DNA of 64,000 bases from Taiwanofungus camphoratus (taxonomy: Eukaryota; Basidiomycota; Agaricomycetes; Polyporales; Taiwanofungaceae). A program made the position numbers and the translations under genes. Location: positions 1,550,001 to 1,614,000 of the forward strand of contig CP021228.1 of NCBI GenBank assembly GCA_003999685.1, written 5' to 3'. The notes under the pieces were generated by a model. It was given only the letters and a program-made list of their open reading frames with translations. It was not told the DNA's origin and made no database searches. Of the stretch, positions 2,090 to 54,234 are shown one piece after another. Numbering within the stretch: the stretch's first letter is position 1; the number at the start of each line of letters is the position of its first letter.

Positions 2090-3764
2090 TGATGAGTTCT
2101 GTAGCCTCCTGGGCCCTGAATCGCGATTTTAGGAGCTTTCTAATCCCCCAACCGACCACTCTAAGACTCTTCTACAGCCTACGACAGGAGAGATAGGTTC
2201 CTATAATATTCCTAAAGCCCCCTTTCCTTCCTAAACCCTCTTAACACCCTACGAAGTCTTGCGAAGTCACACGAGGTGCTACGAGGTTTCGAATGCTAGA
2301 CACGAAGTCCCTAACTCCTGCTAAGTCCACTATCGGACACTGCCGACCCTCCCATACTGTTCCATTGAATCTAGGTCCTATCTACTACGTCACTCATCCC
2401 GGGCTTAGCTAAGAAGTCTTAGCTAAGTCTCTCCTAGCTCTTGTGATTGCAGCTACCTCCGATAGGCTCCGAAACGGTCCGAAGTTCTGGAAGTTGGACT
2501 TAGGAAGCCTTGTACACCCCCATGGGTCTCGATCCTATGCCATAAGGTCATCCTAGGGCGTATCCATATGGCCCTCCACCCAGTTAGGACACCTCCTACC
2601 CCGATTAGGCCAAGTCCCGCTGCTAAGAACTTTGTGCGCTCTTAGCCCACTAAGATAGGTGATCACGGCGCATGGCTGCTCTCGGATAGTCATCCCGCCC
2701 TCGTGAATGAACTTGGTCACCTTTCTACCATACGTAGTTCCCCTGTTTCAGTTTCTAATTAGTTCCTATCCTCCTTGTGTTCACTTCGGAGTCCATGCGC
2801 TTTAGTACACATTTCGGACTCGTAAGGGTCACTTCGCGCAAGAATAGTTCACCTCACGCTCCCCTATTTAGTGAGAGGTAGTTTACTATGTAACGGGGAG
2901 ACCCCTCAGTGCACGCTTCTCTCTTTGGAATACCAGTTTCCCTGTAGCTCCGATCTCAGGAAAGCGCTGCGAGTACAACCTTAGGAACGGTCCTAAGGTC
3001 CCTAAGTCTCCACCCCAGCTCCGTTTCAGTACCTTTGAACTACGTCTACGCTCGCGATATATCTACGAACCACGTCTACGCTTCCCGAACTATGCACTAT
3101 GATCTACGAAGTCGCCGTGACTTTGTGCCCTTCAGTACCTCTTATAGCACCTATCCGGTGGATCTCTGCCTTAGTTATACCCTTAGGCTCACGTTGCGTC
3201 ATCCCTACGTCCTACGAATAGCCCTACGACTCTCCCATAGCCTTAGTTTCAGGCTATAGTACATCTCCCTACGCCCTCGAACTCTCTGACCTCTCCTACA
3301 GGTCTCCTACGCTAGCCAAACCTCGCCCACCTCGCTCTAACAAACCTCTAAGCCTTACACCCTTTAGCTAACTCTAGCTAAAAGGACTTCGCAACAGTCT
3401 CGTACCCTCTGCCGCTTAGTAGAAATTATAGTCCATTGGCTTATTGCTCCCTAACTCTATACAGCCTACAAAGTCAGCTCGTGCGACTTAGTTAAAACTT
3501 CGAAGGACTTCGCAGAATCTTGAAGAACTTCGCGTACTTCGGAGGGCCTCGCAAGGCCTTAGAGATAGTATAGCACTTAGGAACAAGATCCTGTTGTGCA
3601 GGACCCTTGACCCCTTACTCCCCTACTTACAAAAACAAGACATACAGGTTTCCCGGTATCATACAGGTTGTAGCTCCTATTCGCACATCCTCACAGTTAT
3701 CACACTACCCCACAGCCACGTCGCGGAGCACTCCCTAGGTACCAGGGTCCCCTAGGTTGTATCA
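2090..3764 (+). repeat. 5' LTR of the 12.1 kb element
   Basis: This 1,675-bp repeat begins TGATGAGT and ends GTATCA, so its ends form a short inverted repeat (TGAT/ATCA). It matches 12627-14233 along its whole length. It is longer by about 68 bp, in a segment near 3390-3470 that the other copy lacks. Small open frames inside it (for example 3035-3259) recur in the other LTR and are not genes. Confidence 0.93.
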
Positions 3765-3768
3765 TTTC

Positions 3769-3786
3769 TGGAGCCCACCGCGAGGG
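3769..3786 (+). other. Likely tRNA primer-binding site
   Basis: TGGAGCCCACCGCGAGGG lies 4 bp after the 5' LTR. It starts with TGG, as expected for pairing with the CCA end of a tRNA. This contrasts with the self-priming site of the element at 16105-22675. The tRNA partner was not identified. Confidence 0.6.
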
Positions 3787-6657: not shown

Positions 6658-6692
6658 GGACGTCAAAAGTTCTTACCAGCCCATCATCATAG

Positions 6693-8660: not shown

Positions 8661-9075
8661 GCACTTTGCGTACTACGAATCTACCTAATCGGAGTTAGGA
8701 ACCTTATAGTGGAAGTTGACGCACGCTACATCAAAGGGATGTTGCAAAATCCGGACATCGCACCCAGCGCGAGTATAAATCGCTGAATTGTATCGATTCT
8801 AACATTCCATTTCACCCTAGTACATGTACCAGGTACGATGCATGGACCAGATAGACTATCAAGACGAACCCCTCAGCCAGGAGATCAAGAAGAGAGCAGC
8901 GAAGAAGACTTCAAAGACTGGATAGACAAAATGCACTCGTTTCTACATCACATCCAAGCCCCCCCTTCCCATTCTATACCATCGGTTTCTACCCTATTCC
9001 CTTACGAATTCACCTCTAACATTCCTATCACAACCCCCACACCTCCAATAGCTCCAACCTTCGCCTCCAAGTTGG

Positions 9076-9108
9076 CTGAGGACAGCCAAGGTTTCAATAG
9101 GGAGGAGG
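9076..9108 (+). other. Internal copy of the polypurine-tract sequence
   Basis: This 33-bp stretch matches the 33 bp directly before the 3' LTR (12594-12626) at 30 of 33 positions, including the full purine run AATAGGGAGGAGG. It lies in pol, between the RNase H and integrase regions. Its position recalls the central polypurine tracts of Ty1 and lentiviruses. Confidence 0.6.
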
Positions 9109-9277
9109 AGAGCTACAATAGCGTCCCAAGATCCGAAATGGCCAAGGAAGCTGACGCAAGACTTGACTTAGTAGCAAAATTCCTACGAAGCCTCGCGAGA
9201 CCTGCCAACCTATCGGATTCAGAATACGAAGGTTTTGTAAAATACTGTCTTCTATTCTTCCTCGATGAGGACATACT

Positions 9278-10547
9278 ATGGCGCAAAGATCCACAAGGAG
9301 CTCACAAACTAGTTGTAAAGCAGGCAGACCGTCTACAAATCCTCTGAGCATGTCACGACGCAGTCGCGCACCGAGGAATACACGCTACGAAGGTGCTGAT
9401 TTTGGAGCGGTTTTGGTGGCCCTACCATCATATCAACATTGCCTGGTATGTTTGAAGCTGCCACCTATGCCAGATTCGTCAAGTGCGGCAGATTCTAATC
9501 CCTCCTACGGTCGCTACGCCCGCTCCGATCTTCGCAAAGGTTCATATAGATACCATGCATATGCCCCCTTCTAACGGATTTAGGTACTTGGTGCAAGGCC
9601 GGTGTTCTCTAACCCAGTACCCCGAATTTCGGATGCTTCGCAAGGAGACGGCTAAAGCTTTGGCAGAATGGCTCTTCGAAGACTTTGTTTATAGGTGGGG
9701 TGCGCTATCGGAGATAGTCACGGACAACAGTGCTCCCTTCGTAAAAGCTACGAACTACATAGCGAAGAAGTACCAGCTACGACACATCTGAATTAGTGGG
9801 TACAATTCGTGTGCCAATGGACTGGTGGAGAGACCTCACTTCGACGTTAGGCAGGCTCTATTCAAGGCCGTGGATGGCAAAGAGTCTAAATGGTCTCAGG
9901 CAATGTACTCAGTCTTCTGGTCCGAAAGGATCACGACTCGAAAGCGCATGGGATGTTCGCCCTATTTCGCGGTCACTGGCACCCACCCTGTTATCCCTTT
10001 GGACGTCATAGAGGCCACCTATATCCTTCCTCCTCCGTTCTCCATGTTATCCACGACCGATCTTATCGCACGTCGAGCTATCGCATTGCAAAAGCGGATG
10101 ACTCAAGTAGCGGAACTACATTCGAAGGTCTACAAAGTGCAAAGACAAGCTGCTCTGCGATTCGAAGAAAAGCATAAGCACTCCATCCACGATTTCAACT
10201 TCGAAAAGGGTGATTTAGTACTAATTCGCAACACGCAGATAGAAAAGTCTCTAAATCGGAAGATGCGACCTCGCTACCTCGGCCCAGTACTCGTAGTATC
10301 TAGGAACCAAGGTGGTGCTTATATCCTATGCGAATTGGATGGTTCAGTACTCGACAGGCCTATGGCAGCCTTCCGAGTCATCCTCTACTTAGCGCGAAAA
10401 GCTCTCGAACTTTCTACCGAACTCTTGGACGTGTCGACAGAGCGACTTCGCGAATTAGAGCTGACTACCACCCAAGGCGATGACGAAGAACTAGGATCGT
10501 ATCCCTACTCTCCTAAGTCCAGCTCTAGTCCATCCGAAGCTCACTAA
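9278..10547 (+). CDS. Integrase region of the 12.1 kb element
   Basis: Integrase core blocks are visible on the plus strand. One is a stretch with a D..H start (HIDTMHMP near 9550). Another is the block EIVTDNSAPFVKA (about 9715-9750), which carries the second catalytic Asp. A C-terminal domain has the pattern KGDLVLIRNTQIEKSLNRK (about 10205-10260), followed by RPRYLGPVLVVSRN. The region ends with an acidic Ser-rich tail at 10547 and has no chromodomain. The frame is interrupted, and the copy is a relic. Confidence 0.7.
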
Positions 10548-16690: not shown

Positions 16691-17442
16691 GGACTCGTCG
16701 CCCTGACGATCGAACCCTCAGCGTCTGACCCCTCTTGTTCTGATTTGACCCTGGCTCGTGGTCGGAGTGTGTCAGACTGGTCGGAAGAGATATCGTCATC
16801 ACTGGTATGCATGCAGTCATGGCTCCAATGTCCCATTTGTCGGCATCGTATGCAGAAGGGGGAGTTCCCCCCACTGGTCGAGCTAGGGGCACCACCAGTG
16901 ATAGAGTTGGGCGGACCATCACTGACAGAAGGGGCCTGTGTTCTGGCCTGATGTCGTGGCGGTATCAGGTTGTCGATGACGCCCATTAGAGGGGAGCGCA
17001 TGAGGACGGCGAGCAGGTTGCGGGCTGCTCGGCTTGCATCTATGTGGAGAGTGGCCAACTGCCACGTTGTCGGGTTGTTGCCATTTGGCCCAAGGCCTGT
17101 TTGCCTTCGTTCGAGTGTGGCCAAGCTGCCAGCCTCTCGCGCGACAATGACCAGTGTCCGATAAATGTTCGTCAACTCCCACAGGTCTGGCCAAGCCAAC
17201 AGCCGGGTGTCTATTTCTGGCCGTAGATCGGCATCCACCAGGGCCCAGGCCGTGCGGTGCGCAAGTCTCCACTGATCGTACGGATCGTTGGACGCTGCCA
17301 ATGGGGGCACTGTCTCCTGAATGTTTCGGTAGGGGTGTGCGCGTGTGTGTCTTGCTCGTACTCGGGGTGCGAGGTCTCGTACCCTTGCTGCGCTGTGGTT
17401 CAAGTAGACGGATAGCTGTCGGGGGTCTGTATGAGTGGACAT
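16687..17442 (-). CDS. Zinc-knuckle ORF overlapping the end of pol
   Basis: This 251-codon frame starts at an ATG (MSTHTDPRQLSVYLNH) and overlaps the last 524 bp of the pol frame in another register. It has a mostly helical N-terminal two-thirds, a Ser/Gly/Pro-rich linker and then a zinc knuckle, CIRCRQMGHWSHDC (C-X2-C-X4-H-X4-C, about residues 197-210). A Ser/Asp-rich acidic tail follows. The pol protein after its chromodomain (last ~170 residues) has no recognisable domain, so this frame is probably the coding one in the overlap. It corresponds to the zinc-knuckle frame at 1486-1782 in the first element. Function is unknown; RNA or DNA binding is likely. Confidence 0.65.
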   Translation of the reverse strand: MSTHTDPRQLSVYLNHSAARVRDLAPRVRARHTRAHPYRNIQETVPPLAASNDPYDQWRLAHRTAWALVDADLRPEIDTRLLAWPDLWELTNIYRTLVIVAREAGSLATLERRQTGLGPNGNNPTTWQLATLHIDASRAARNLLAVLMRSPLMGVIDNLIPPRHQARTQAPSVSDGPPNSITGGAPSSTSGGNSPFCIRCRQMGHWSHDCMHTSDDDISSDQSDTLRPRARVKSEQEGSDAEGSIVRATSP

Positions 17443-20400
17443 CGTAGTGCCGTGCCTCCACTGAATGTCGGTTGTATGCAGCTTTGCAGATCCGGGTGTA
17501 GCGGGCGTTGACCTGGGGCCTTGCAGGCAACCTGTTGACCTTCTTATATTCCTCCAGAAGGTCGGGCGAGTTCCTTAAGTCCGCCTCGGACTGCCATGTA
17601 TTAGCCAAGTTCGGCCATCCAACCCATTTGATTAGGAACTGCCATTTCCCACGTTGGGCACGATGCCCGTGAATGGCTTCGACTTCATATTCTTCATCGC
17701 CATCGACTAATTCTGGGGGCGGCCTTGTGAAGTTCGGACCATGTTCCTTGGTTTCCCTGTATGGTGTCAACAGCGATGCATGGAATACTGGATGTATCTT
17801 CCATGCCCTTGGTAGCTGAAGCTTGTACGTTAGCGGTCCTAGGACTTCGGCTATCTTGAGTGGTCCCACTCGCTTTGGGGAAAACTTCCTCGGGGTCTTT
17901 AGGCGGAGGTTAGTTGCTTCTAGCCAAACCTGCGTCCCCTTCTCAAATGGCTGCCATGTGGTTCGAGCCCTTTCTGCCATCAACTGCGCAGCTAGATCCT
18001 GTGCTGCCAGTGCTTCCTTTCTGAACTCTCCGATGGCTAAGAGTCGGTCCTTGATTGATGGGTACCTTTCCGATGCCTTTGGTGATCCGATTGCCTTTGG
18101 ATCATATCCCATAATCAGCTTGAATGGTGACTCCCTTCTCCCAGCATGTGGCACCTGATTGTGTGCGAATTCAAATTCCGGGATAAACTTTGCCCAGTTA
18201 TGAGGATTGTTGGCACACAGGATTCTCCATGCGGCTTCGAGTTCCTGATTGACACGCTCAGTGCTTCCATCAGACTGCGGATGGTAGGCAGTGCTCATGG
18301 CCACTTTGACACCTGTCAGCTTGCACCACTCCCGGAACACCGTTGCTGCGAACTGTGGGCCTCGGTCCAATATGATTCTGTCAGGTAGCCCATATCGCCG
18401 GTAAACGTTCTGGTGGAGTGCCTCGGCTGTTCCTACTGCATCGATGGTCTTGTTGCAAGGAACCAGGACTATCCCTTTGGACAGTTCTCGGTCCACCACT
18501 ACCATTAGTGCGTCAGATCCACGCGATTCTGGCAGGTCTGTGATGAAGTCGACTGAGATGTGTGAGAACGGCCTGGAGTTCGGTTCCGTTGGGATGGGTT
18601 GCATTGGTGGTCGTGTTGGATGCGTGTTGACCTTATTCTCCTGGCATTTGGCGCAGCCTTTCACGTATTTTTCGATAAACGTGGTCATGCCATCCCAGAA
18701 CCAGTCCCTTCTAGCAATGGCAAACGTTCCCTGTGCTCCTGGATGGGCCATAGCTGGGGTGTCATGGCAAAGTCGAATGACTTCTCTGCGCAAGTCATCA
18801 CTAGGGGGTACGTAGATTCGATTTTTGTACAGAATCAATCCATCCTGCACATCCCAATCAGCCAATGTTGTGTGCGCAAATCCAGTGCCCTTGAATGGTG
18901 GTACTTTCCCCCGTTTTAAAGCATCAATCGTCTCGATGACCATGCTGTCACGACTTCGGTGTTGCCGGATGCGCTCGATGAGGTCAACATTAACTGCCTT
19001 TGCAAACAGTGTTTCTGGTAAGAGGACAATGTCCTCATTGTCCCTCTCACCCCCTGGGTGTCCTGGTCTACGTGATAGGGCGTCCGCCACTACGAGTCGT
19101 TTACCCTTTCGATTCTCCAGTAGTAAGTCAAACTGCGATAGCAGCAGTTGCCATCGTGCCTGGCGTCGTGTTAGCCGTTGGGCTTCTCTGAAGTATGTCA
19201 GGTTCTTGTGGTCCGTTATAACCGTGACCGGGTGCTTTGCGCCCTCCAGGTGGTGACGCCATTCCTCAAGTGCTCGTACGATTGCCAGTAGTTCTCTATC
19301 ATAGATCTGATAGTTCCGTTCTGCTTCCTTCAGCGATTTTGAAAGGAATGCCACCGGGTGAAGTTTCCCATCAGGGCCCTCCTGTTGCAATACTGCACCT
19401 GTTGCAACCAGTGAGGCATCGGCCTCGATTACAAACGGTTTCTCAGGGTCGGGCATGGTGAGTACTGGGGCCTCACAAAAACGGCGTTTAAGTGCCTCGA
19501 AGGCTGCCTGGCACTTGTTCGACCAGTTCCAAGCTACCCCCTTTTTCTTAAATGCATTCAGGGGGTGGGCGATGTCCGAGAATCCGCGTATAAACCGTCG
19601 ATAGTAATTGGCGAGGCCCAGAAATCGTTCCACATCCTTGACTTTGGTCGGTATGGGCCATTCATCGATGCCCCGCAGCTTGCCAGTGTCCATATGGATG
19701 TGGCCCGGTGTGATGGTCATTCCCAGAAACTCAACTTCTTGTACATCGAAGGCACACTTTTCCGGTTTCACAAAGAGGTCCATCTCCTGCAAGCGTTGCA
19801 GTACCCGGCGTGTCCGTTCTCGGTGGATGGTAGCATCATCGGAGTAGATCAGGATGTCGTCCATATAAATGGCTAACCATCCTTCCGCAAGCATGTCTTG
19901 AAACCCATCATTCATAAGCCGCTGGAAGGTGGCCGGGGCATTGCACATGCCGTAGAACATTACCGTTGGTTCAACTAGCTTCTTGGTTCCGTGGTGATTC
20001 ACCATGAACGCTCCCTTCCACTGGTCGCCCTCCCTGATGCGTACATTGTTGTAGCCATTTCGGAGGTCCAGCTTCGTGAATATGGTTGCCTTTTGCAGGT
20101 TGTCGATGAGCTCTCCAATGAGTGGGAGTGGGTATGCATCTTTTACCGTGCTGTTGTTGAGGTATCGGTAATTCTGACAGGGCCTGAGTGTACCATCCTT
20201 TTTTGCCACAAAAAATGCTGGGGAGGCCATGGGTGACTTTGAGTCCCGTAGATATCCTTTCGCCAGGTTCTCGTCAAGGAACTTGTCCATCTCTGCTTGT
20301 TCAGCCAGGGATAATGCAATTACCCCGCACTTCCTAGGTACAAAGTTAGGCTTTGTCTCCACAGCGTGGTCCCATGGTCTCGAACCAGGGAATCGAGCAG

Positions 20401-21901
20401 CGGCCGCCTTTTCAAAGCGGTCCCGGTAGTCGAGTAAGTACTCAGGCACCAGGTCTTCAATCTGTGGCCCCTCCTCAGGGGGTGTCAGTGGTGCGCTTGT
20501 CTGCCTGGCGGTGGCTATGAACCGTTTTGAGCCCCTTACATGGCTGTTCCGATCTAACGATGGTTGAGACTTCTTGGGTGGCTGCAGCAGGCCCATTTCA
20601 TCGAATAGGGGTTCCGGTTGATCGTTGAACATGCCTAAGACCCCTTCTCCCCTTGTATAAGCACATAGGATGGTTTCTAGCTCATCATCGTCCTCGTGTG
20701 CAGAGGCTCGGCACAATGGGATGCCGTCCGTGGTAGGCTGGTCCATGATCCAAGCATAGTATCCCTGCCATTCCTTAATCCTGTCCGGGTCAACCGTGAG
20801 GGTCCCTTTCGGCCAATCGATCTGCGGGTTGACTTGAATCAACCAAGGGTTGCCCAGCACTACTTCGAGGTCCCCGATGTCTGATACATAGAAGTTTGTG
20901 GGTATGTCATACCCTTCAAGCCGTATGCTCCCTTCAACTCGATGGGTAATCGGTCCACCCCTGTTGGGGGTCCCATCAATGGTCGTACTTCGTACCTTCC
21001 GAGGTAGCGGTCGTGTGGGCAGTCCCCATCGTTCCACAAGGTCAGGGTGTATGAGGTTGGCATCGGCTCCGCTATCGATTAGTGGTCTCACAGCGATGGC
21101 CTTTTTCCCGGCGACAACATAACCTTCTACATACAGAGTGGTTCCTTTCCGATATCCTGTGATTGTGGCCCCCATTGAGATGGTCGGGTCCTTACTGGTC
21201 TTTGGCTTGTCCAAGTTTCTTTGCACAGGTTTCCCTGTGCCTTCAGCCATTGATTCCCCTCCTGGGGCATCAGTGAAGTGTTTAAAATGAGGGAACCGTT
21301 TCTGTTCAATGGACTCTACGGTGGACGTTCCTAAGGATTCCTCCGTTTCTTCACTGCTCCAGTAGTCTGCTGGTGGGACCGGATATGGCTGGGTTTCCTC
21401 CAAGGCGAAGTCATCTGAGTTTGACGAGTGGTGCAGTTCCAGTTCCCTGTCTCTCCCGGCATCATTGGAAGGTTGTGGAAGTCTGGGTTCGCTTTTGTGT
21501 GGATTATCGTGTTCATCGTCAGCTTCCCCTAGGGCCACGTCTCTGTGTCCTTCCTTTCTGATTTTCCTGGGCTCCGGGCATGCCTTGACCAAGTGTCCTG
21601 GCTTCCTGCATCGGTAGCAGCTCCTCTTCTTCCAGTGATGAGGTGTCAGAGCTGTATTGGGGTGGTTGTGTCGGTGTCCTTGCCTGGAGCCTGTGCCTCT
21701 CTGCCCCTGTTCGAGGGCTTCAGTGGAGGGCTGAGAAAGTCTGAGGTCATTGTCGCTTGGGGAAAGCGGTCCATCCCAGGGGATCCCTAGGGCTGCTTCT
21801 TCTGTTGTTTCTGGTCGGGGTATGTGGTCTTCCTCCCTTCCTTCCTTCAATTTTCTTCGCCAGGTGATAGCTCTCCAGACTATCGCCAGGAACTTCTCCA
21901 T
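16919..21901 (-). CDS. Gag-Pol frame of the young chromovirus
   Basis: This single frame has 1,660 codons. From the N-terminus it shows a charged segment, a Gag-type zinc knuckle (CYRCRKPGHLVKAC, about residue 94) and a protease with catalytic DSGA (about 290). Then follow reverse transcriptase (ending in YMDDILIYSDD, about 680), RNase H (VIEADASLVATGAVL) and integrase with its zinc-binding end (CAKCQ) and catalytic core (SVDFITDLPESRGSD; LDRGPQF; HPQSDGSTERVNQELE). The chromodomain (EYEVEAIHGHRAQRG to WVGWPNLANTWQSE, about 1425-1475) would bind modified histone tails to guide insertion. About 95 residues precede the zinc knuckle. Confidence 0.93.
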   Translation of the reverse strand: MEKFLAIVWRAITWRRKLKEGREEDHIPRPETTEEAALGIPWDGPLSPSDNDLRLSQPSTEALEQGQRGTGSRQGHRHNHPNTALTPHHWKKRSCYRCRKPGHLVKACPEPRKIRKEGHRDVALGEADDEHDNPHKSEPRLPQPSNDAGRDRELELHHSSNSDDFALEETQPYPVPPADYWSSEETEESLGTSTVESIEQKRFPHFKHFTDAPGGESMAEGTGKPVQRNLDKPKTSKDPTISMGATITGYRKGTTLYVEGYVVAGKKAIAVRPLIDSGADANLIHPDLVERWGLPTRPLPRKVRSTTIDGTPNRGGPITHRVEGSIRLEGYDIPTNFYVSDIGDLEVVLGNPWLIQVNPQIDWPKGTLTVDPDRIKEWQGYYAWIMDQPTTDGIPLCRASAHEDDDELETILCAYTRGEGVLGMFNDQPEPLFDEMGLLQPPKKSQPSLDRNSHVRGSKRFIATARQTSAPLTPPEEGPQIEDLVPEYLLDYRDRFEKAAAARFPGSRPWDHAVETKPNFVPRKCGVIALSLAEQAEMDKFLDENLAKGYLRDSKSPMASPAFFVAKKDGTLRPCQNYRYLNNSTVKDAYPLPLIGELIDNLQKATIFTKLDLRNGYNNVRIREGDQWKGAFMVNHHGTKKLVEPTVMFYGMCNAPATFQRLMNDGFQDMLAEGWLAIYMDDILIYSDDATIHRERTRRVLQRLQEMDLFVKPEKCAFDVQEVEFLGMTITPGHIHMDTGKLRGIDEWPIPTKVKDVERFLGLANYYRRFIRGFSDIAHPLNAFKKKGVAWNWSNKCQAAFEALKRRFCEAPVLTMPDPEKPFVIEADASLVATGAVLQQEGPDGKLHPVAFLSKSLKEAERNYQIYDRELLAIVRALEEWRHHLEGAKHPVTVITDHKNLTYFREAQRLTRRQARWQLLLSQFDLLLENRKGKRLVVADALSRRPGHPGGERDNEDIVLLPETLFAKAVNVDLIERIRQHRSRDSMVIETIDALKRGKVPPFKGTGFAHTTLADWDVQDGLILYKNRIYVPPSDDLRREVIRLCHDTPAMAHPGAQGTFAIARRDWFWDGMTTFIEKYVKGCAKCQENKVNTHPTRPPMQPIPTEPNSRPFSHISVDFITDLPESRGSDALMVVVDRELSKGIVLVPCNKTIDAVGTAEALHQNVYRRYGLPDRIILDRGPQFAATVFREWCKLTGVKVAMSTAYHPQSDGSTERVNQELEAAWRILCANNPHNWAKFIPEFEFAHNQVPHAGRRESPFKLIMGYDPKAIGSPKASERYPSIKDRLLAIGEFRKEALAAQDLAAQLMAERARTTWQPFEKGTQVWLEATNLRLKTPRKFSPKRVGPLKIAEVLGPLTYKLQLPRAWKIHPVFHASLLTPYRETKEHGPNFTRPPPELVDGDEEYEVEAIHGHRAQRGKWQFLIKWVGWPNLANTWQSEADLRNSPDLLEEYKKVNRLPARPQVNARYTRICKAAYNRHSVEARHYDVHSYRPPTAIRLLEPQRSKGTRPRTPSTSKTHTRTPLPKHSGDSAPIGSVQRSVRSVETCAPHGLGPGGCRSTARNRHPAVGLARPVGVDEHLSDTGHCRARGWQLGHTRTKANRPWAKWQQPDNVAVGHSPHRCKPSSPQPARRPHALPSNGRHRQPDTATTSGQNTGPFCQ

Positions 21902-22091
21902 CTTTCCGGTGTTTCTTATCCTTCAACTCAACACTGATGGTACGCACTTGTAGTCAAGTGATCCTCCTGCCAGTCCCTTCCAATGGGGACACTGGTCTTA
22001 CCCAATCCTTCCTATGAGGACGTTGGTGAGGGTCCGGTTTCGTCCGCTTGTTCGCGTTCTAATTCGCTATCCTGAGATAGAGTTTGTAGGG

Positions 22092-25765: not shown

Positions 25766-28700
25766 ATGTCTCTCCCGCAGGCTCCCAAAGACATAAGCGG
25801 CCACCCCGCCTCCGTATGCTCCTCCCATCTGTTTCCCCCTTCCCCCGCTGACTATTCCCCCACCCACAGAACTCCGTTGTCGAACCCGTCAACAAAGCCG
25901 CTCAGGCCACCGACATCGACCGCAAACTCCGCTTCTACGGCGTCATCGCCGCATTCCGCGAGTCCCGCTTGCCCACAAACGACCAGTGCGATCGTGCCCT
26001 CTCCTACGCCCTCGCACACTCTCCCGTAGACACCACACAACTCTCCCAAGACGGCCAGCGCCTTATCAACGACGCCCGCGACATCATCGAGACCGCTCGC
26101 CTCATCCTCCAGCAGAAAAACGCAGACGAACTCTTCCAGAACTTTGTCTGGCACACCCGCCAGGCCGATCTCTCCTCCGCCAAGAAGGACCCCTCCGACC
26201 TTGTCCCTGTTGACAAGGACAAGGCCAAATCAGACGGCCAGCAGGCCGTCCAGCACCTCCGCACCCTCCTCGCCCTCGTCCTCACAAACGCAGAGGTCCG
26301 CAAGCTTCTCGCAGACTTTGGCGTCATCGGCCGTGACCTCCTCGCCCGTGGCGCCAGTAAGGTCGCCGATGCAGCCCGCCCCGACGAGGAGCGTCTCCGC
26401 ACCGTCGACGACACGGCGCCCAAGGACCAATTTGTCAGCGCAGATGGCCGCACCGTCGGCCCCGACGAGACCCCGGTATGTGCGCCTGCAAGTCTGATAT
26501 TCCACCGCTAACGACAGCCGCAGGTGCTCGAGGCGCGCATACCTGGAACAAGCACAACGATCGCGCAGCATCCCCGTGATGAGCTCGGCACCGGTGCCAC
26601 CGTCAAGCACGGCAACGGTGAGGCCAAGAGCGGCACCAGCGCGCTCAACGATGCGGCGCAGCACGGGGACGAGCTCAAGGCGAGAGTCTTGCCGCTTTCC
26701 TGGTGTCACTGATTAACACGCGCGCACACACACACAGGCCGAGGCACAGAACCAGGCAGAGAATGTCAAGGAGATCGCCACAGACGCTGACGCTAATGGC
26801 ATACCTGAAGACGAGCAGGAGGCGAAGAAGGGCGGCCTCATGGGCAAGCTCCGCGGTGTCAAGGTCGGTTGTTTGTCTACCACTCGTGCTTTCAAAAGTT
26901 TCCCTCTATACTGCCCAGTCCGCTCGACTAAATCCCCACGCATGCCTGGCCTTCAGCTCGACTCTTCCCGCCATCCGTTTGCTCACATACTGACGATTCG
27001 TGTGCGGACAGGACACGCTCGCGGACAAGGTGCCCCAGGAGCACAAGGACAAGGCCAGCGACCAGTTCGACCGCGCGAAGCAATTCCTTAGTGAGGAATA
27101 CTTTCCCGAGGAACGCCGCGACCAGTTCATCTACCGCGGCAAGAAGGTGCGTCAGTGCGACTCTGAGCGGACACGCGAAGAGAGCCCTTTTTTCTGAACG
27201 GCGCTAATGCTGTGAGTTGACGAGCAGGTGATTATCGAGTGCCAAAAGCATAAGGACTATCAAGAGTCAATCCATTGGTTACTCGGCTTCCTCGAGGAGT
27301 ATGCCTCGCACAGCAAAACCGTTGCGGGCGCAGGTGCGGAGCCTTCCCTCTCTCGTCCGCTCACACCGCTAATGTTCCTCCCGTCCGCTCGCGCTCCAGC
27401 ACAAGACTCACACGAGCAAGCGACGGCGGACCCGGCGCTGCAGCAAGCAACGCATGAGCTGCGCACACTGCTCGAGCGCTTCGCGAACGGAACGAGCCTC
27501 AGCGTGATTGGCGATGCGATCCAGGCACTGTACAATGACGCACAGGGGGACGAGGAGCTGAAGGACTGGTTCAAGAGCGTGGACACGTACACGCGCAAGG
27601 TCAGTTTTTTGCTCGTTCGCTTCCCGCGTACTTTTTTTTTGCATGCGAGGACTATCAGCATTCTCCCGTATATTTTTCTCTCCTCGCTCGCGTATTTCCC
27701 CGATGATCGGACTGACGGGTTGACGACAATGCTCAGGTACTCCTAGACACCGGATACGTGCTCGAGCCGCAATGCAATGACGAGGCAAATAAACTGCGTG
27801 AGAGCGGGCGCCGGTTCTACGATGAGAAGTACACGGATCACTTTGACAACCTGTTCGGTAGCATGAAGGAATGGTTCCGCGCTCTTGGGGATGATCCGCT
27901 GAATAAGCGGTAGGTGTGCAAATGAAGATGTGTCCGAGCGTGGGGCTGACAATAGCATGGTCAGGTTTGGCGAAGACTGGGCGCGCCTGACCAAGGACCT
28001 ACTTTTCGATAGTGAGGGCAGTCTGAAGTTCAAGCCTGAGCTTTGGATGGACATCCGCAAAGTCATCTTGCCCAGCATCATCGACAGGGTACGTTTCCCT
28101 TTGCAACGCAATCTGCTCGACCCTCTGATGCTTTGTGCATATAGGTGGGATATATCCCGATCCCACGCATCGAGTACACGGACGATTCGCTCGACCTCGT
28201 CATCGAGAACCTCGCGCTGTCGGGTCGGAACCTCTTCCCGAATGTCATCAGCATGGAGGCACACAACTTCATCAGGTTCAGCCCGTACAATGCTATCACG
28301 TACGTGACTCACTTGTCTCGATTTTGGCGAGAGCGATCTATTCATATTTTCTTGCTAGCGATGAGGGCCGGCACGAATTCATCCTCACCCTTGGGCAGAT
28401 TCAGGCGGACATGCGCGACGTGGCGTTCTATTTCAAGAAGAAGACGGGCTTTCCAAAGCTTTCAGACTCGGGGCTCGCAGACGTGCTGCTCGGCGGGGAG
28501 GGACTCACGGTCACGGCGCACGTCGCGTCGGCCGGCAAGGACAGCTCGAGCGTGTTCAAGGTGAAAAACGTGCACGTGAAGGTCGGAACGCTCAAATTCT
28601 CCATTCGCGACTCGAAGCACGACATGCTGTACAAGACACTCAAGCCACTCGCGACGGGGCTTGTGAAGCGCCAGCTGCAGAAGGCGATCACGGACGCAGT

Positions 28701-29130
28701 GACGACGGGCCTCGAATATGTTGACGGGCAGCTAGTCGGCGTAAGGGACCGCATGGCGGAGGCAAAGGCGAGCGAGGACAAGAGTCGAACGCAAGTCTTG
28801 CAGGAGGTACGTGCCCGTGCCCTGTCATAATTTCCATGGTGACTGACGCCGGCGATGTTCCAGCTGTTCCAGCGCAAGAAGGATGAGGCCAAGTCGGTCA
28901 AGTCGAAGGCGGACGACAAACATGCGCAGTTCAAGGTCGTCTCGAAGCGTGACTCGGCTATCCTGCCGCAGGAGGGTAACCCTGCTGGGTGGGTCAACAG
29001 GACACAGGACCGCGCCGAGAAGGCGGTGCAAGGTGAGGACTGGCGGAGCGAGGCGTAAGTAGCAACGTTTTTGAGCCATTGAGCAGTACATTGACATGCG
29101 ATTCTACCGCGCAGGTTCACGATTGTGTAG
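25766..29130 (+). CDS. HAM1-like / BPI-type lipid-binding-like protein
   Basis: The gene predicts about 827 aa in 13 exons: 25766-25813, 25870-26475, 26524-26679, 26738-26863, 27012-27146, 27228-27333, 27400-27599, 27737-27909, 27965-28088, 28145-28299, 28359-28806, 28864-29054 and 29115-29130. The frame is kept across every junction. The start MSLPQAPKDISGH follows a good TATA promoter. The protein has a long, charged, mainly helical N-terminal part (from RKLRFYGVIAAFRES). From about residue 560 a C-terminal part begins (YIPIPRIEYTDDSLDLVIEN, VKVGTLKFSIRDSKHD, LVKRQLQKAITDAV). I recognise this as the fungal HAM1-like family, often labelled with BPI-like (TULIP) lipid-binding folds. A membrane or lipid-transfer role is inferred. 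Intron 3 has either a GC donor (after 26679) or a weak GT donor 9 bp further on. Confidence 0.85.
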
Positions 29131-45270: not shown

Positions 45271-46002
45271 TTATACCTCTTCCAGGTATCCCTGCACTAT
45301 GAGATGCTCGACATCGACCCTGCGAACCAGGAAGCGGTGGCCGCGTCGGAAGTCAATCGCCCCCTGCTCAGTGTTGATGACGCCACAGTCGCGGATGACG
45401 CGCGCAAGGACGTGGAGATCCTTGGGAGGACGTATGATAGGTGCGAAAAGGTCGACGTCCTCCGTGAGCGCGTGATCGCCGGGAATGCCAGAGGCGGAGG
45501 AAAAGGCGTCATCGCGCAGGGCCTGAAGAGAAGCACTGTATGAGCGAAGAAAATCGACTTCATGTGGTGAAAGCTTGGAGCGGATGTCCGTGGGTGCAGA
45601 GGGCACAGCGCCGTGGGCATTCGGATTCGCGTTAGCGTTTGCAGGAGGCGCGACAGGTGGAACAGAGAGAAGAAGAGGGAGGGCGCCGCCTACAGACCAG
45701 AAGAGGTCCTTTAGGCGTTCCAAGCGGTGGTGATGATAGGCAAGGAGGCAACGCTTGTTGCGGAGAATAGCGGTCTGGTAGAGTAATACAGTGCGGATTG
45801 CGGGACTGTCCGCGGAGGGGTCCTGGTCAGGTTGAGCAGCGAGAACGGCCTGAACGAGGGCCTCTAGTTGTCGCTGTTCACGAATGATGGAGCGTACAAG
45901 CACATCATTATATTTGAGAAGCGTGTCTGTGATGGTAGAGCGCCGAGATTCTGTGAGAAGTTGCGTGGCGAGGTCGCCATATTGATGCATCGTCGAAATC
46001 AT
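45271..46002 (-). CDS. PSF1: DNA replication complex GINS protein PSF1
   Basis: This intronless frame has 243 codons. Together with SLD5, PSF2 and PSF3, PSF1 forms the GINS tetramer. GINS joins MCM2-7 and CDC45 in the replicative helicase in the nucleus. The N-terminal A domain is clear (YGDLATQLLTESRR, then NDVLVRSIIREQRQLEAL), as is the C-terminal B domain (DLHVLARVIRDCGVINTEQG, then HRFLVRRVDVEHLIVQGYLE). Between them lies a Pro/Ala/Asn-rich insert (about residues 117-140) that makes this copy longer than the 196-208 residues of human and yeast PSF1. Most homologues start MYGDLA, so the second ATG (45990, MHQYGDLA) may be the true start. It is divergent from the helicase-AAA gene, with 652 bp between the two start codons. 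Confidence 0.93.
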   Translation of the reverse strand: MISTMHQYGDLATQLLTESRRSTITDTLLKYNDVLVRSIIREQRQLEALVQAVLAAQPDQDPSADSPAIRTVLLYQTAILRNKRCLLAYHHHRLERLKDLFWSVGGALPLLLSVPPVAPPANANANPNAHGAVPSAPTDIRSKLSPHEVDFLRSYSASLQALRDDAFSSASGIPGDHALTEDVDLFAPIIRPPKDLHVLARVIRDCGVINTEQGAIDFRRGHRFLVRRVDVEHLIVQGYLEEV

Positions 46003-46654
46003 CGCAGATATTACAAGAAAGGATTGGATATTGCCGCTGGAGCAACGTAAGGATATCGAATATTTTGAACCTGAGGGTCGATATCAAGTATCAAGACAAC
46101 AAATCGTCATGTGTGGACGTGATAATAAACGTGACTGTGACTGTACGCGTTTGCCTCCGAGTCGTGTTTATACTCCATACTCGTAGGTACATGCAGAGTA
46201 CATAATAATAATAGATGGGCTCCAGGACGGCCTACAGTTTTCAGCGCCCTCGGTATGTGGGTGGGCAGTAAGCCAGCGAGCCTGCACAGGGAGAGGACAG
46301 CTCAACCAGCCTACAAGTCCCCAGCCGCCAGAGAAGCGACGACCCGCGCGCCGCCCGGCCCGGCCCACACAGCTCAAACGCCTCGCGTTTGCTATGTTGA
46401 CTCGTTACACAATTTTTATTCGAGAACATTACTCATGGCTGGCATTGTCCTATGTAGTATCTACCAATTTATGCGTCTCGCGAGCTCCCCGCGAAATAGC
46501 CTGGCCAACAGGCCTGACGCTCAGGTACTCAGGATGGAGTGGGTCCATTGACTTCTAAAGTCGGTTGGGAACGTGGCATCCGCAGCTGTTTCGTTGACGC
46601 CCAGATAAATAGGCATGCAACCGTCTGCTGCTACTAGGCTACTGTATTGATCCC
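46003..46654. promoter_or_regulatory. Divergent intergenic region between PSF1 and the helicase-AAA gene
   Basis: These 652 bp hold both promoters. No TATA box was recognised for either gene. A short GC-rich stretch lies at about 46310-46370. Confidence 0.4.
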
Positions 46655-49600
46655 ATGAAGCAGGGAAGCACTACTGAAAGCCATCTCGGTCCTCGAGCAT
46701 ATAAGCTCAACAAGCTACTAGATTCCATTCTGTACGGAAGGCAGCCCATCAGTCCCGAAAATGGCCTCCTTTTCATCGAGGCAATCTGTGCGCAGCTGGA
46801 TCCAGCAGGCTGCATCAATAAACTTGTTGGGAGCAAGACCGGACTTGCATCTTTGCAGGCTGTCATGCGTTTCGATCTTTCAGTGACTTTCTTCAATGGA
46901 CATGCCACCGATCTTCTCATTTATATGCAGGCGCCACAGTTGCAAACGATTGGTGGGGGCAATTTTTTGCAACAGATCATCCTTGCAATCGTGGAGCCAC
47001 CCATCTTTTGGACGTCTTTCAGCCAGGCATTTCAGGCTGGAACGCTACAAGAGAATGGGCAGCTCTCCTTTGCATGGCTGCTTCTTCAGCTCGTATCATT
47101 GCCCGTAGATAAGGCCAGCCCATATCGTGAGATCGCCCAAGATCCACCTATATCAGATCGACTGTCCACCTCGTCGCATTCTGGAACAAGAGCAATCGGG
47201 AAAAAGATAAAGGAAATTCTTTCCGCGTTCGATGCTACCCTCCCTATCAGTAGCGAGTACAGTCCTGGAGGCCGACATGATAATGATCATGTTGACTTCC
47301 GTGAAATCGCTATTGTTCCTACCGCAGACGAAATCATATCCTCCGAGCGGCCATTCCTTCGTCGAAGCTCAGTGCTAGACGACCCCAGTACAGAGGACAA
47401 CCGCTTGGCAGTTCATCTCGATAATCAGTTTCGGCTTCTGCGAGAGGATATGATTTATGAGATGCGGGAGGAACTGCAGATTGCTCTTGGTGGAAAGAAG
47501 GGAAAGCACAGGGGACTTGTCATTGATGGTCTCGCATTACTTGGACTACACTGTGGGACGGAGAAGAAGAGATCGAAGTGGAGTCTGACCTTCGAATGCA
47601 AACATGACTTACCGCAATTCAAGAAAAATAAACCCAAACAACGGAAGACGTATCTAGAAGAGCACCGTAACGTTTTAAAGCATCAGTCCCTCGCATGTCT
47701 CATTATTGATGGGGAAGTTGCTGCATTTTCATCAATTAACCGAGATGAAGACTTGCTGGCAAGGGATCCGCCAGTCGTTGCCCTTTGGTTTGAGGGCGAG
47801 GCTAGCACCAAAAGGGTCCTTCTTAGGCTCAAAGTTGCGAAACATATCAAGCTCATCCAGATCGACACAGCCATTTTCTCCTATGAGCCGATTCTAAAGG
47901 CTCTTCAGGAGACCACGAGCATGCCATTATCACAAGAATTGCTTCTGTGGAAGGAGGACCATGTCGTGCAATCGCCGTCAGTATCACCGGTTGATATCAT
48001 TGAAGCTCTTCGAACGAATGCACGTCAGGATCTCAGGCAGCTCTTGGGAATCCAAGGCCCTAATCCGATTCAACTGGATGAGTCACAAGCTTCATCGCTT
48101 CTCTCGGGCCTTACGCAGAGAGTTTCCTTGATACAAGGGCCACCAGGTATGACTGTAATATTGGACATGTGAACGGCATATCTGACGGGACCGTATTTGA
48201 CCTTAAGGAACCGGAAAATCATTCATTGGTGCACTTCTAGGAAAGATTATCCATGACTCAAGTCAGCAAATCATTCTTGTGGTGTGCTACACCAACCACG
48301 CCCTCGACCAATTCCTCGAAGACCTTCTCAGGATTGGTATACCGGAGTCGAACATGGTTCGATTAGGTAGTAAGTCTACACCGGGGACGGCATCTCTGAT
48401 GCTCCAAAAGCAGAGCAAGATATCTAGGCTGTGTAAAGCAGACTGGGAAGGAATTGATCGTCTTAAGTTGACCTCTGAGAGGTTTGTCGACCATCTTGAT
48501 TCAGCCTTCAGCAGATACAAAGCGTTACATGCTCAATACGATGATTTGCTCGAGCATCTGGAGTTTGAACATCCTTCATACTACCGGGCTTTCCGTGTTC
48601 CGGAATCGACTAACGGGATGACTCGAGTAGAGAAGAAAGGCCGTGACGTTGGTCCACATTATTTACTAAACCAGTGGGTGCGAGGTTGGAATGCGGGCAT
48701 CTTCAAAAATTCCGCTCATGTTCGCGAAGCATCAGAGGTCTGGGAGATGACGCAGGATGCACGTCAGGTCCAACTCTCGAAATGGAGGTCAGAACTTTTG
48801 AATGAACAGATCTTAGACTTCTATGCTGCTGCCAAGATATACAATGAAGGCCTAGATGATCTTGATCGGATTTTCAACCAGAACACGGCCGCTATTCTCA
48901 AAACCAAACGTATTATCGCTTGTACCACAACTGCAGCAGCAAAATATAGAGAGGATATCCAAGCGGCTTACCCTGGTGTGGTTCTGGTTGAGGAAGCAGG
49001 CGAGATCCTTGAGAGCCATGTCCTCACGGCCCTCGGAAGTAACACTAAACAGCTTATTCTTATTGGCGATCATCAGTATGTCCTGGTTTAGCCAACCTTG
49101 TGTTTTCATCAAATGTGATAGAAATTCTAATCTTTTCTCTTCAGACAGCTTCGTCCAAAGGTGAACAATTACCTATTAACGGTGGAAAAAGGCGAAGGCT
49201 ACGACCTCAACAAATCTCTGTTCGAGCGCCTTGTACTCAAGGGTTATCCTCATGACACTCTTGTTCAACAACATCGTATGCGTCCAGAGATATCTTCTCT
49301 GATCCGTCAGCTCACTTATCCAGACCTGGTCGATGCTGAAAGCACGAAGAACCGTCGAGAACTCCGCGGTGTTCGAGATACTATTGTCTTCATCGATCAT
49401 AGCCACCCAGAAGATGACAATCCGCAGAGCACCAGTGATAACAATCCGAATTCATCATCATCGAAACAAAATACACACGAGGCGGAGATGGTTTTGAAAA
49501 TTGTGCGATATCTCGCACAACAAGGATATGGATCACAAAAGATTGTGATTCTGACACCATACCTCGGACAATTACATAAGCTCCAAACTATCCTCAAGCA

Positions 49601-52600
49601 GGAGAATGATCCAGTCTTGAATGATCTTGATTCGTACGATCTAGTCCGTGCTGGACTGATACCTACAGCGACTGCAAAATTATCGAAGAAGCCAATTCGC
49701 CTTGCAACAATAGGTGTGTGGGCAAGATGGCCATAATTCCATGAAATTGTACTGATAGCTCCGTCTTCGAGACAATTACCAGGGAGAGGAGAGTGATATT
49801 GTGATCGTGTCGCTAACAAGGAGCAACTCCTCCCATGATATTGGCTTCATGCGTTCTCCTGAGCGGCTGAATGTAATGCTTTCAAGGGCGCGTGACGCTC
49901 TCATAATGATCGGAAATGCGGAGACATTCCTCACGGCTCGTGGAGGAAGCGAGCTTTGGTCTCGCGTAATCGACTTGCTGAAAGAGGGGAAACATATCTA
50001 TGATGGACTTCCCATTAAGTGCGAACGGCACCCAGATCGAATGGCGCTCTTGAAGCTGCCAACTGATTTTGACGTCCTAGCTCCCGACGGTGGATGCCAG
50101 GAACCTTGGTTAGCTGCACTTCAGATTACTTGCATTCATTCGCTGTATTGATCTCGATCTCAAACAGCGGAACCATGTTGAAATGCAATCTCCACTACTG
50201 TCCCTCAAAATGCCACCAGCTGTACGATCATTCCAAGATGCCTTGTAAGCAAATCATATTCGACACGTGCTCCAAGGGTCATCAACTGTCCTGGGAATGC
50301 CACGAGGACCGTCCTGCTGTATGCATGAATTGCGAAAGGGCGATCAAACTTGCGGAAAAGCGGCAGCAGGAGGCCTTCGCCCTTCAACAAAAACGGGAAG
50401 CTGAAGAACAAGAGCACGCTCGACAACTAGCCAAAATAGAGGAAGAGATTGCGAAGCAAACACAAGTGCTCCGTGATAGTCAGCTTGCTGAGGAGAGGGC
50501 GAATGTCATCCGACAAAAGAGATTAGATATGGGAATGCTTGCTCAGCTCGCTGCACGAAAGTTGTCTACGGCTACAGACGCGCTCGGAATTGGAACCACA
50601 GAAACCACAGAAAATATACCTCAGGCTGAGGATAGTAAATCTGGAACAATATCCCAAGGAAGCTCGAAGAAGGTGGCGGCAAGGCAGGAGCATGTTCAAT
50701 CTCAAACAAAGGTTACTTTGCCTGGAACTCCCGACGCGACAACGTCTCAGCCTCCCTCCAAAGCGGAGCAGGAATGGGAGCGTCAGAAGTTGATGGAGGG
50801 CGCGTCGAACGATTCAATCGACTCGATCATGAATATGACGGGCCTCGAAGACGTAAAAGCGCAAATTTTACAGGTCAAGAACAAGATTGATGTGGCTAGA
50901 CGGCAAAACATCTCTCTCAAGGAACGTTACAACATTGTTCTCTTGGGAAATCCAGGCACAGGTAAGAGATTAGTTTCTATGATGTTGAGTTCGTGAATGG
51001 GAATTAACCTGTTCCCACCTTATGAGGAAAAACAACGGTAGCAAGACATTATGCAAAACTCTTAGTGTCTCTTCAAATCCTTCCGGGAACTGCTTTTGTA
51101 GAGACCACCGGGTCCCGCCTCGCAATGGATGGAGTCGCTGGCACACAAAAGCACATTGAGAAAGTCATCAATGCCGGAGGAGGAGCAATCTTCATTGACG
51201 AGGCCTATCAGCTGACAGGCTCACACAATTTCCAAGGGAGCCAAGTGTTAGATTTCCTGCTCGCAGAAATGGAGAACAACATCGGATCCATCGTTTTCAT
51301 CCTAGCGGGTTATAATAGGCAGATGGAGAAGTTCTTCGAGCACAACCCTGGTCTGACAAGTCGAGTCCCACACAGGCTACATTTTGCAGACTATACAGAT
51401 GCTGAACTTCTCTTGATGTTTGAACGAATGGCCAAGAAGAAATATTCTGGACGAGCCAAAGTAGAGGATGGTTTCCAAGGCTTGTATGCTCGAATCGCTA
51501 TACGACGTCTAGGCAGAGGGCGCGGGCAAGAAGGCTTTGGTAATGCACGTGCGCTAGAAAATCTACTTGCCAGAGTCTCGGGACGACAGGCAGACCGACT
51601 CACTGAAGAACGTAAGAGAGGACTATGCCCTGACGACCTCTTATTTCTCAAACAGGATCTGATTGGTCCGAATCCTTCGAACGTTCTCCTTAAAAATACA
51701 GCCTGGGAGAAGCTGCAGTCTTTGACCGGTCTCAAGGCGGTCAAGCAGTCTGTTCAAAACCTGTTCGATCTTATCCACACAAATTATCAGCGCGAGCTAT
51801 CTGAAATGTCCCCTGTTCAAATGTCTCTCAATCGTGTATTCTTGGGCTCACCTGGAACGGGAAAGACAACGGTTGCCAAGCTCTATGGTCAAATCTTGTT
51901 GGACCTAGGTCTTCTGAGCAACGGTGAAGGTATGAATAACGGAGCTACCTAGAACTTCTAACTTCATTGTGTCAATGCTAACATCATGCATCTGAAGTGG
52001 TGATGAAGAACCCGGCAGATTTTATTGGTTCAGTTCTTGGAGAATCTGAGAGCAAAACGAAAGCCATATTAGCAGCAACGGTGGGCAAGGTTCTCATTAT
52101 CGATGAGGTCAGTAGCGTGAATGCATTAGTCGTTCCATGATGTGATAGATCCTGTGACACGCAGGCTTATATGTTATATGGAGGTGCGAGTAGCCATGGA
52201 AATCAGGCCGACATGTACAAGACGGCCGTTATCGACACTATTGTCGCAGAAGTTCAAAGCTTACCCGGAGAAGACCGATGTGTTCTATTATTGGGATATA
52301 AGGATCAAATCACCGAGATGTTTCAGGTAATGGTGTTCATCTCCGGCCAAGAGCATGTTGACCAACCCATCTCATTGATTGGAAGAACGTCAACCCTGGC
52401 CTGTCTCGACGTTTCGCTATTGAAGACGCGTTCCACTTCGAGGACTTCACCGATTCGGAATTGTTGGAAATTCTGAACCTCAAGCTGAAAGATCAAGACC
52501 TCGAAGCAACAGATGCTGCGAAAAAAGTTGCAATCGATGTGTTGTGTCGCGCTCGCAACAGACCCAATTTTGGCAATGCAGGTGAAGTTGAGAATCTCCT

Positions 52601-54234
52601 GGCTCAGGCAAAGGCCCGCTACCAGACACGTCAGGCGTCACTTCCTACCGAGGAGAAGACATTTGACATTGTATTCCAACCGCAAGATTTTGACCTGAAT
52701 TTCGATCGCGATGCTCGAGCGTCTGTAAATCTCTCCAAGTTATTCGATGGTGTAGTGGGTTGTGAGGATATCATTACCAAACTGCGAGGGTATCAGGAAA
52801 CTGCGCGTAAAATGAAAGCTCGAGGGATGGACGCGAAGGATCAAATTCCTACCAATTTTGTCATGAAAGGACCCCCAGGTACGTTCCCCCCGATAGTCTC
52901 CAAAGGAGTCCCGTTTAAGCTTAAATACGTTTCATCTCCGTACCGACTGACAAGGTACGGGAAAGACTACCACTGCACGCAAGATGGGACAAGTCTACTA
53001 TGACATGGGTTTTCTGTCTTCTGCAGAAGTCGTCGAACGTTCCGCATCAGATCTCGTAGGACAATACGTGGGCCAGACTGGCCCTAAAACTAAAGCCCTA
53101 TTAGAGAAGGCACTGGGCCGCGTTCTTTTCGTTGACGAAGCATATCGACTTGGCGACGGGCCTTTTGCGAAAGAGGCGGTTGATGAGTTAGTCAGTATCT
53201 TGACGCAACCAAGGTTTCTCCACAAGATTGTCGTTATCCTTGCTGGATATGACCACGAGATGAACCGGCTCATGGCGATCAACACTGGACTTTCGAGCCG
53301 ATTCTCTGAAGAGTTGATATTCACCAATATGAATCCTGGACATTGTTTGGACGTACTCAAAGCAGAGCTGAAGAAGAAAAATATCTATCTGCCTGCCTTG
53401 GATGACCCAGAATGCGACACATACACTGCAATGGCGCGATTACTGGAAGACTTGTCCATTCTGCCGTCCTGGGGAAACGCTAGGGATGTTGGGACCCTGG
53501 CGAAGAAGATGATAAGTCACGTCTTCAGGACCCTGCCGGATGAGGTGGAAGATTCTACCATGCTCAAACTGAACGATGAAGACGCCTTGTCCCTCATGGA
53601 ACGCATGCTTGCCGAGCGCAAGGGGCGTACTACCAACGTCGCTGTCAATACCTCATATTCAGACGGCATGCAGCAAATGCCCAATGCTCCTCCATTGCCC
53701 TCAGGTTCCATACGCGTATCGAAGTCGGTCAAGCCTAAAGAGCAGAACAAAGAGAAGCCGGTGTCTCCGCCGCCTGACGCGCGTGACGCTGGTGTCACAG
53801 ACGATGTCTGGAGACAGCTTCAAGAAGACAAGCGAAATGAGGAACTTGCGTCAGAACGCACTGCAGCCGATATGCAAAGACTGGAGCAAGAGCTTGAACA
53901 CGCTAGGCAACACGAAAAGGCGGGTCGTGCCCTCGCTGAAGAGTTGGCAAGGGCCCAAGCAAAAGATGCTGCCGAACGAGACGAACTGAGACGTCAACAG
54001 GAAGAAGCGCGGATAAGGGAGTGTAAAGCCCAGGCGGAACGAGAGAGAAGGGCAGCCGCACTGAAGGCGGCGAGGGAGGAGGAGGATCGGCGAAGAAAAC
54101 AGGAAGCGAAGGCACAAGCCGCACTCCGCAGAATGGGCGTGTGTGTTGCAGGATTCAAATGGATCAAGCAAGACACGGGGTATCGCTGCGCCGGGGGCTC
54201 TCATTTCGTGAATAATGAGGCATTAGGGATATAG
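46655..54234 (+). CDS. Giant ZNFX1-like SF1 helicase fused to three CbxX-type AAA+ modules
   Basis: The gene predicts about 2,335 aa in ten exons: 46655-48146, 48208-49075, 49145-49713, 49772-50108, 50168-50961, 51027-51929, 51998-52107, 52165-52326, 52386-52878 and 52955-54234. The frame holds at every junction. Residues 1 to about 300 form a helical N-terminal region. About 470-1040 is an SF1 helicase of the ZNFX1/UPF1 type: Q motif, Walker A GPPGTGKS (~495), VLVEEAGE (~760), GDHQQLRP, QQHRMRPE (~828), QGEESDIVIVS (~980) and NVMLSRARD. A Cys/His-rich NFX1-like patch follows (~1080-1150: KCNLHYCPSKCHQ), then a coiled coil. Three AAA+ modules have Walker A at ~1348 (GNPGTGKT), ~1627 (GSPGTGKT) and ~1906 (GPPGTGKT), and Walker B IDEAYQL, IDEAYML and VDEAYRL. 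A Glu/Arg coiled coil (~2215-2300) and a short Cys/Trp/His tail end the protein. A role in RNA surveillance or antiviral defence is inferred from animal ZNFX1. Confidence 0.9.

Follow-up and report, generated by a model that had tools for sequence, protein, structure and literature searches.

Does the gene at positions 46655–54234 of this 64,000-nt stretch of the Taiwanofungus camphoratus genome (the window) encode a single protein in which an RNA helicase is joined to an array of AAA+ modules, and what might such a protein do? The gene model was read from genomic DNA alone. Joining the 10 exons gives 7008 bases that translate into 2335 residues, and the only stop is the terminal one. The nine introns are all GT–AG, with lengths between 57 and 76 nt. 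The spliced reading exactly reproduces the coordinates, protein length, nine introns and 50108/50168 junction that had been proposed in an earlier note on this DNA. The features of the gene and of its surroundings are collected in Table 1. Introns 1, 5 and 9 (beginning at 48147, 50962 and 52879) are all in phase 1, and each interrupts a Walker A glycine codon, in the helicase, module 1 and module 3 respectively; introns 1 and 9 split the same glycine of GPPG. It is possible that this reflects chance use of the sequence CAG-G.

Table 1. Features of the helicase–AAA+ gene and of the surrounding window (positions are those of the window)
Feature	Position	Strand	Basis or remarks
Whole gene, start to stop codon	46655..54234	+	Spliced reading: 10 exons, 2335 aa, single terminal stop
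N-terminal region, aa 1–472	46655..48070	+	Aligns with ZNFX1 from about aa 209
SF1 helicase core (AAA_11 + AAA_12), aa 473–1026	48071..49920	+	Pfam, ZNFX1 match, motif positions
NFX1-like Cys/His patch, aa 1060–1147	50020..50342	+	Alignment with ZNFX1
Linker, charged, aa 1148–1302, inside exon 5	50343..50807	+	Open frame, in-frame codon bias
AAA+ module 1, aa 1303–1569	50808..51673	+	Walker A/B, GY, Arg finger and sensor-2 Arg present; pore-loop aromatic absent
AAA+ module 2, aa 1578–1847	51698..52691	+	Walker A/B, GY and Arg finger present; pore-loop Val, sensor-2 Gly
AAA+ module 3, aa 1860–2133	52728..53625	+	Every checked residue canonical
C-terminal tail, charged, aa 2134–2335, including stop codon	53626..54234	+	Open frame
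Introns 1–3	48147–48207, 49076–49144, 49714–49771	+	GT–AG
Introns 4–6	50109–50167, 50962–51026, 51930–51997	+	GT–AG
Intron 4, junction queried by the earlier note	50109..50167	+	GT–AG, 59 nt
Introns 7–9	52108–52164, 52327–52385, 52879–52954	+	GT–AG
Retroelement, 1667-aa open frame	16919–21922	-	Reverse transcriptase, RNase H, integrase and chromodomain matches
Second group of frames resembling a retroelement	3739–10547	+	RT_RNaseH_2 E = 1.7e-7 in 6693–8660; one of two frames given to Pfam matched
HAM1-like family gene	25852–28830	+	HAM1_N E = 2e-82 and 2.4e-24, HAM1_C E = 1.8e-18
Divergent neighbour, part of GINS subunit PSF1 gene	45271–46083	-	PSF1_C E = 2.6e-9, Sld5 E = 6e-9

The helicase core is recognized by Pfam as AAA_11 (aa 473–793, E = 2.1e-29) followed by AAA_12 (aa 808–1026, E = 1.7e-42), both above the curated cut-offs. 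Each SF1 motif is found once, as had been claimed for the full set. Among solved structures ZNFX1 is the top match with 273.4 bits, and UPF1 is next with 114.6 bits. Motif II is VEEA in the window protein, in ZNFX1 and in two further genes of this genome (L117 and L118, described below), and our reading from these four proteins is that VEEA may serve as a mark of the ZNFX1 class. The region preceding the helicase also aligns with ZNFX1 (phmmer, E = 4e-8). No Pfam family is found in aa 1–472, and a prediction of exon 1 by AlphaFold2 from the single sequence (mean pLDDT 36) is too poor for use. Following the core, the Cys/His patch is assigned because it is covered by the ZNFX1 alignment, which spans about aa 970–1136 in this region. 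The small NFX1-like patch described earlier thus stands as a stretch aligned with ZNFX1 but not as a recognized domain, since no zinc-finger family is recognized by Pfam in that stretch at E ≤ 1. It is a single patch that aligns, and a series of NFX1-type zinc fingers is not seen in the alignment.

The joint between helicase and AAA+ array is the critical point of the model. The path could in principle have merged two adjacent genes, one for a ZNFX1-like helicase and one for a triple-AAA protein, and helicases of this class can exist without a CbbX-type module because the two other ZNFX1-class genes of the genome have none. However, intron 4 sits within the Cys/His patch, and the ZNFX1 alignment crosses it without a gap. 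Exon 5 (50168–50961, 264 codons) contains the joint and is open from the patch into the Walker A motif of module 1. Given the base composition of the exon, such openness has a chance probability of ~1.4e-6, and the remaining five frames contain 10, 9, 10, 5 and 13 stops. The linker in this exon, judged by eye, is probably coiled. With a codon table trained on other parts of the same gene (aa 1–1088 and 1320–2149), the in-frame score of the linker (aa 1130–1319) is +0.127 bits per codon, and all five other frames fall below zero. The codon score is a rough guide, because the Cys/His patch (aa 1050–1129, part of which was used for training) has −0.066 in frame against +0.072 in one minus frame, and the joined introns reach +0.064 in one of their minus frames. 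Eukaryotic proteins with the same joint are moreover in print, as described in passages of PMC10659427. The two-gene reading was rejected on the open junction exon, the codon bias of the linker and the ZNFX1 homology across intron 4, and is very improbable. A single gene, as read here, can be regarded as secure short of transcripts, and it is close to certain that a ZNFX1-class helicase and a tandem AAA+ array are present in one protein.

The AAA+ part matches Pfam AAA over three stretches (E = 8.4e-41) and AAA_lid_6 over two (E = 4.5e-20). The profiles that the earlier note had named as a check (helicase AAA_11 and AAA_12, and AAA), together with AAA_lid_6, all lie above their curated cut-offs, and its union of a ZNFX1-class helicase with CbxX/SpoVK-type AAA+ modules is upheld by Pfam, by the solved-structure matches and by the coding joint. 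Among those structures the AAA part matches CbbX (E = 6.4e-37 and 1.2e-36) and EccA1 (E = 1.9e-28). Compared with the NCBIfam models for SpoVK, CbbX and EccA each module scores 120–150 bits, and none of the three reaches any of the equivalog cut-offs (423–467). By these scores the modules are assigned to the SpoVK/CbbX/EccA clade, yet to none of those proteins. Module 2 is 29% and module 1 27% identical to module 3.

An alignment of the three was built together with 125 relatives taken from bacterial and viral loci (87 ORFs gave 139 stretches, of which the 14 scoring under 100 bits were discarded). Walker A, Walker B, the GY of sensor 1, an asparagine and the arginine finger are present in all three. 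The GY is given as a feature of the clade in passages of PMC10659427, and the asparagine stands in the column just before the arginine finger, where it is shared by 122 of the 125 relatives. Elsewhere the modules are unequal. At the pore-loop position the relatives have mostly tyrosine (79), histidine (23) or phenylalanine (16), with valine in 3, isoleucine in 2 and a gap in 2; module 3 has tyrosine, module 2 valine and module 1 glycine. The pore loop of module 1 is loosely aligned, but contains no aromatic residue. Sensor 2 (the second arginine finger) is arginine in 121 of the 125 relatives and in modules 1 and 3, while module 2 has a glycine that is found in two of the 125. The earlier description of three complete modules therefore holds for Walker A, Walker B and the arginine finger and fails at the pore loop and sensor 2. 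Because the pore-loop aromatic is absent from two of the three modules, it is doubtful that they act as three equal motors. From these residues we infer that all three should be able to bind ATP, and that module 3 alone appears equipped for gripping a chain in the manner of CbbX. That the three modules have lost motor residues unevenly is new here.

The charged tail ends in a Cys/Cys/His motif, GYRCAGGSH (CVAGFKW...GYRCAGGSHF at 54142–54231). Similar Cys/Cys/His tails may occur in other fungal proteins. No Pfam family exceeds its cut-off in the tail, and there is no second copy in the genome, where the sole match at E ≤ 1 is the gene itself.

The gene is the only one of its kind found in the T. 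camphoratus genome (33.2 Mb, 15 contigs). Searching with the AAA array at E ≤ 0.001 gives five exon-level matches and with AAA_lid_6 at E ≤ 0.1 two, all within this gene; at these thresholds no other CbbX-type AAA gene is found. The helicase gives 14 matches, five in its own gene and nine at five other places. Two of these places, L117 on contig 3 and L118 on contig 4, have the VEEA motif II and match the pre-helicase region, and the core of L118, joined by hand from tblastn pieces, ranks ZNFX1 first (169 bits, against 46 for UPF1). On these grounds both are assigned to the ZNFX1 class, L118 also by the structure ranking, and the genome search with the AAA array finds no CbbX-type module in either. 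A further place (L119) is UPF1 itself, two pieces of which reach 331 and 204 bits with UPF1 but only 30 and 54 with ZNFX1. Three ZNFX1-class genes can thus be told apart in one genome, and only one was found with AAA+ modules. When neighbouring exon hits are grouped by eye, RdRP is matched in 6 places and Piwi in 7; these are RNAi genes that such a helicase could serve. On contig 11 (1595255–1600626; L019, L120 and L122), a match to RdRP and one to an SF1 helicase share a strand and are separated by ~3.7 kb.

Prokaryotic and viral relatives of the array were examined at 86 loci, namely 80 genome loci (the best 80 of at least 470 relatives) and 6 viral loci, which are a sample and not a survey. 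The 87 ORFs carry one module stretch in 47 cases, two in 33, three in 2 and four in 5. Tandem arrays are ordinary in the clade, because 40 of the 87 sampled ORFs have them. None of the 87 ORFs matches the ZNFX1-type helicase. The 86 loci contain 2158 ORFs of 150 aa or more, with a sole helicase match (L089, E = 3e-4); it is weak, on the opposite strand and, as we read it, a different SF1 protein. On the viral contigs no helicase relative was confirmed. One viral contig of 169 kb does encode an AAA+ module of the clade (L031, 5001–5663; 31% identity, E = 1e-27). A search of plasmid records with the array gave 268 records, and many among the 25 listed are annotated as beta-helix proteins of Streptomyces. 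In a tree of 128 modules the three fungal modules lie apart, each at the end of a very long branch, and the output carried a warning that joins may be false, so no line of descent is drawn for them. Module 3 joins the third module of a bacterial protein (L049, 5768–9496, + strand), a join flagged as a possible long-branch error; that protein has three clade modules preceded by ~400 residues without a helicase match.

The architecture itself is already in print and known in outline. According to passages of PMC10659427, eukaryotic members of the clade carry an SF-1 RNA helicase domain N-terminal to the AAA+ domains and are predicted to act in RNA processing, the known SpoVK/CbbX/EccA members are dedicated chaperones with narrow targets, and a figure legend includes a zinc-binding domain among the architectures. 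In the open-licence literature no functional study of such a helicase–AAA fusion was found. The Neurospora crassa gene NCU09357 is probably the same fusion, to judge from how passages of the literature label it: 'stage V sporulation protein K' (PMC6468284), a SAD-3-like helicase elsewhere, and 'ATPase, DNA/RNA helicase, nonsense-mediated mRNA decay protein' (PMC3571971). These labels give good though indirect support to a fusion shared with Ascomycota, and the connection to NCU09357 is likewise a contribution of this analysis. Two other text matches were dismissed as unrelated or too broad, a Botrytis 'sporulation protein kinase' (a word match) and a radiation-raised gene of Exophiala (the broad SpoVK/Ycf46/Vps4 group).

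Overall, the best explanation is a single-copy ZNFX1-class helicase with an AAA+ array, acting in RNAi or RNA surveillance with a dedicated protein remodeller (probability about 0.45). The helicase and Cys/His patch would bind RNA and travel along it in an RNAi-linked or surveillance step, and the AAA+ array would remodel a single protein that is dedicated to it and partners the RNA, for example a polymerase or Argonaute bound there. Gripping would fall to module 3, and modules 1 and 2 would be ATP-binding modules or have a part in assembly or regulation. An RNA-bound helicase with a client-specific remodeller is suggested because its helicase relatives act on small RNAs, the genome has RdRP and Piwi genes, and the chaperones of the clade have narrow targets. 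In passages of PMC9276528, ZNFX-1 and Hrr1 act in small-RNA amplification and RNAi; RnhA and SAD-3 (PMC6468904) are likewise placed in small-RNA pathways in the text available. An RNA substrate is likely on the strength of these relatives, which also suggest the pathway, and a dedicated client is what we infer from the AAA+ clade. For a role in RNAi or RNA surveillance as such the odds are roughly even, and the division of labour among the modules is more tentative. The loose alignment of the module 1 pore loop counts against the main reading.

So does the behaviour of NCU09357, which would also fit a developmental or spore-stage remodeller of RNA and protein without a silencing role. In the part of PMC6468284 available its RPKM rises from 3.8 to 11.2 to 23.3 during 24 h of wild-type conidiation, and a Shiraia gene called stage V sporulation protein K has been studied among sporulation genes. 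However, the identity of NCU09357 with this fusion is only probable, the name 'sporulation protein K' was borrowed from a protein of bacteria and has no fungal evidence behind it, and in the ada-6 mutant the 12 h value of 14.0 is above the wild-type 11.2 (PMC6468284). A developmental role retains some probability because of the late-conidiation expression and because NCU09357 is not named in the available main text on meiotic-silencing suppressors (PMC6468904), and we consider it somewhat unlikely. The protein might instead control viruses or transposons, as the earlier note suggested, sensing or stripping foreign RNA while the array dismantles a bound viral or element protein. Mammalian ZNFX1 homologues take part in the immune response to RNA viruses (passages of PMC9276528), and dN/dS of NCU09357 is raised, on the N. 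intermedia branch only (passages of PMC3571971). Retroelement genes lie in the same 64-kb window, and the 1667-aa frame at 16919–21922 we take to be a Ty3-type element of the chromodomain kind. The helicase core also matches the bacterial Mokosh protein MkoA (E = 1.3e-75, 253.5 bits), but UPF1 of this genome is matched by MkoA too, at 95.6 and 102.7 bits for two pieces, as is the L118 core at 103.7 bits, and this kinship was set aside as non-specific. Mokosh may be linked to ZNFX1; no paper naming both was found in the open-licence literature. An antiviral role for the window protein would be a guess, and control of viruses or transposons is an unlikely account of it.

A bolder extension of the preferred reading is a two-motor machine for fungal RNA silencing, in which the helicase works on RNA and a dedicated protein is pulled off that RNA by an unequal array, where one module grips and the other two have structural or regulatory duties. 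The client may be Argonaute, RdRP, or a viral or element protein. Such a machine is improbable. If true, it would stand beside Hrr1 and SAD-3 as a separate ZNFX1 branch and would be the counterpart, on the RNA side, of CbbX and EccA as dedicated chaperones. The fusion ties a little-studied, narrow-target AAA+ clade to helicases of small-RNA inheritance and antiviral sensing, and if NCU09357 is the same fusion, as the labels in three papers suggest, its function is testable in a model fungus.

Compared with known systems, the window protein resembles CbbX, EccA and SpoVK in its AAA+ fold, in the residues of the clade and in its tandem array, and differs from the sampled clade ORFs in its helicase partner. 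The eukaryotic members of PMC10659427 have the same order of SF1 helicase followed by AAA+, a likeness drawn from passages of text and a legend only, and the labels of NCU09357 cover both halves of the fusion, its architecture being read from those labels only. With ZNFX1 it shares the helicase core, the VEEA motif II, the pre-helicase region and the Cys/His patch. In contrast to ZNFX1, Hrr1, SAD-3 and RnhA, it adds three AAA+ modules and has only one Cys/His patch, and its 2335 aa compare with 1160 for SAD-3, 999 for Hrr1 and 1231 for RnhA, as given in the passages available.
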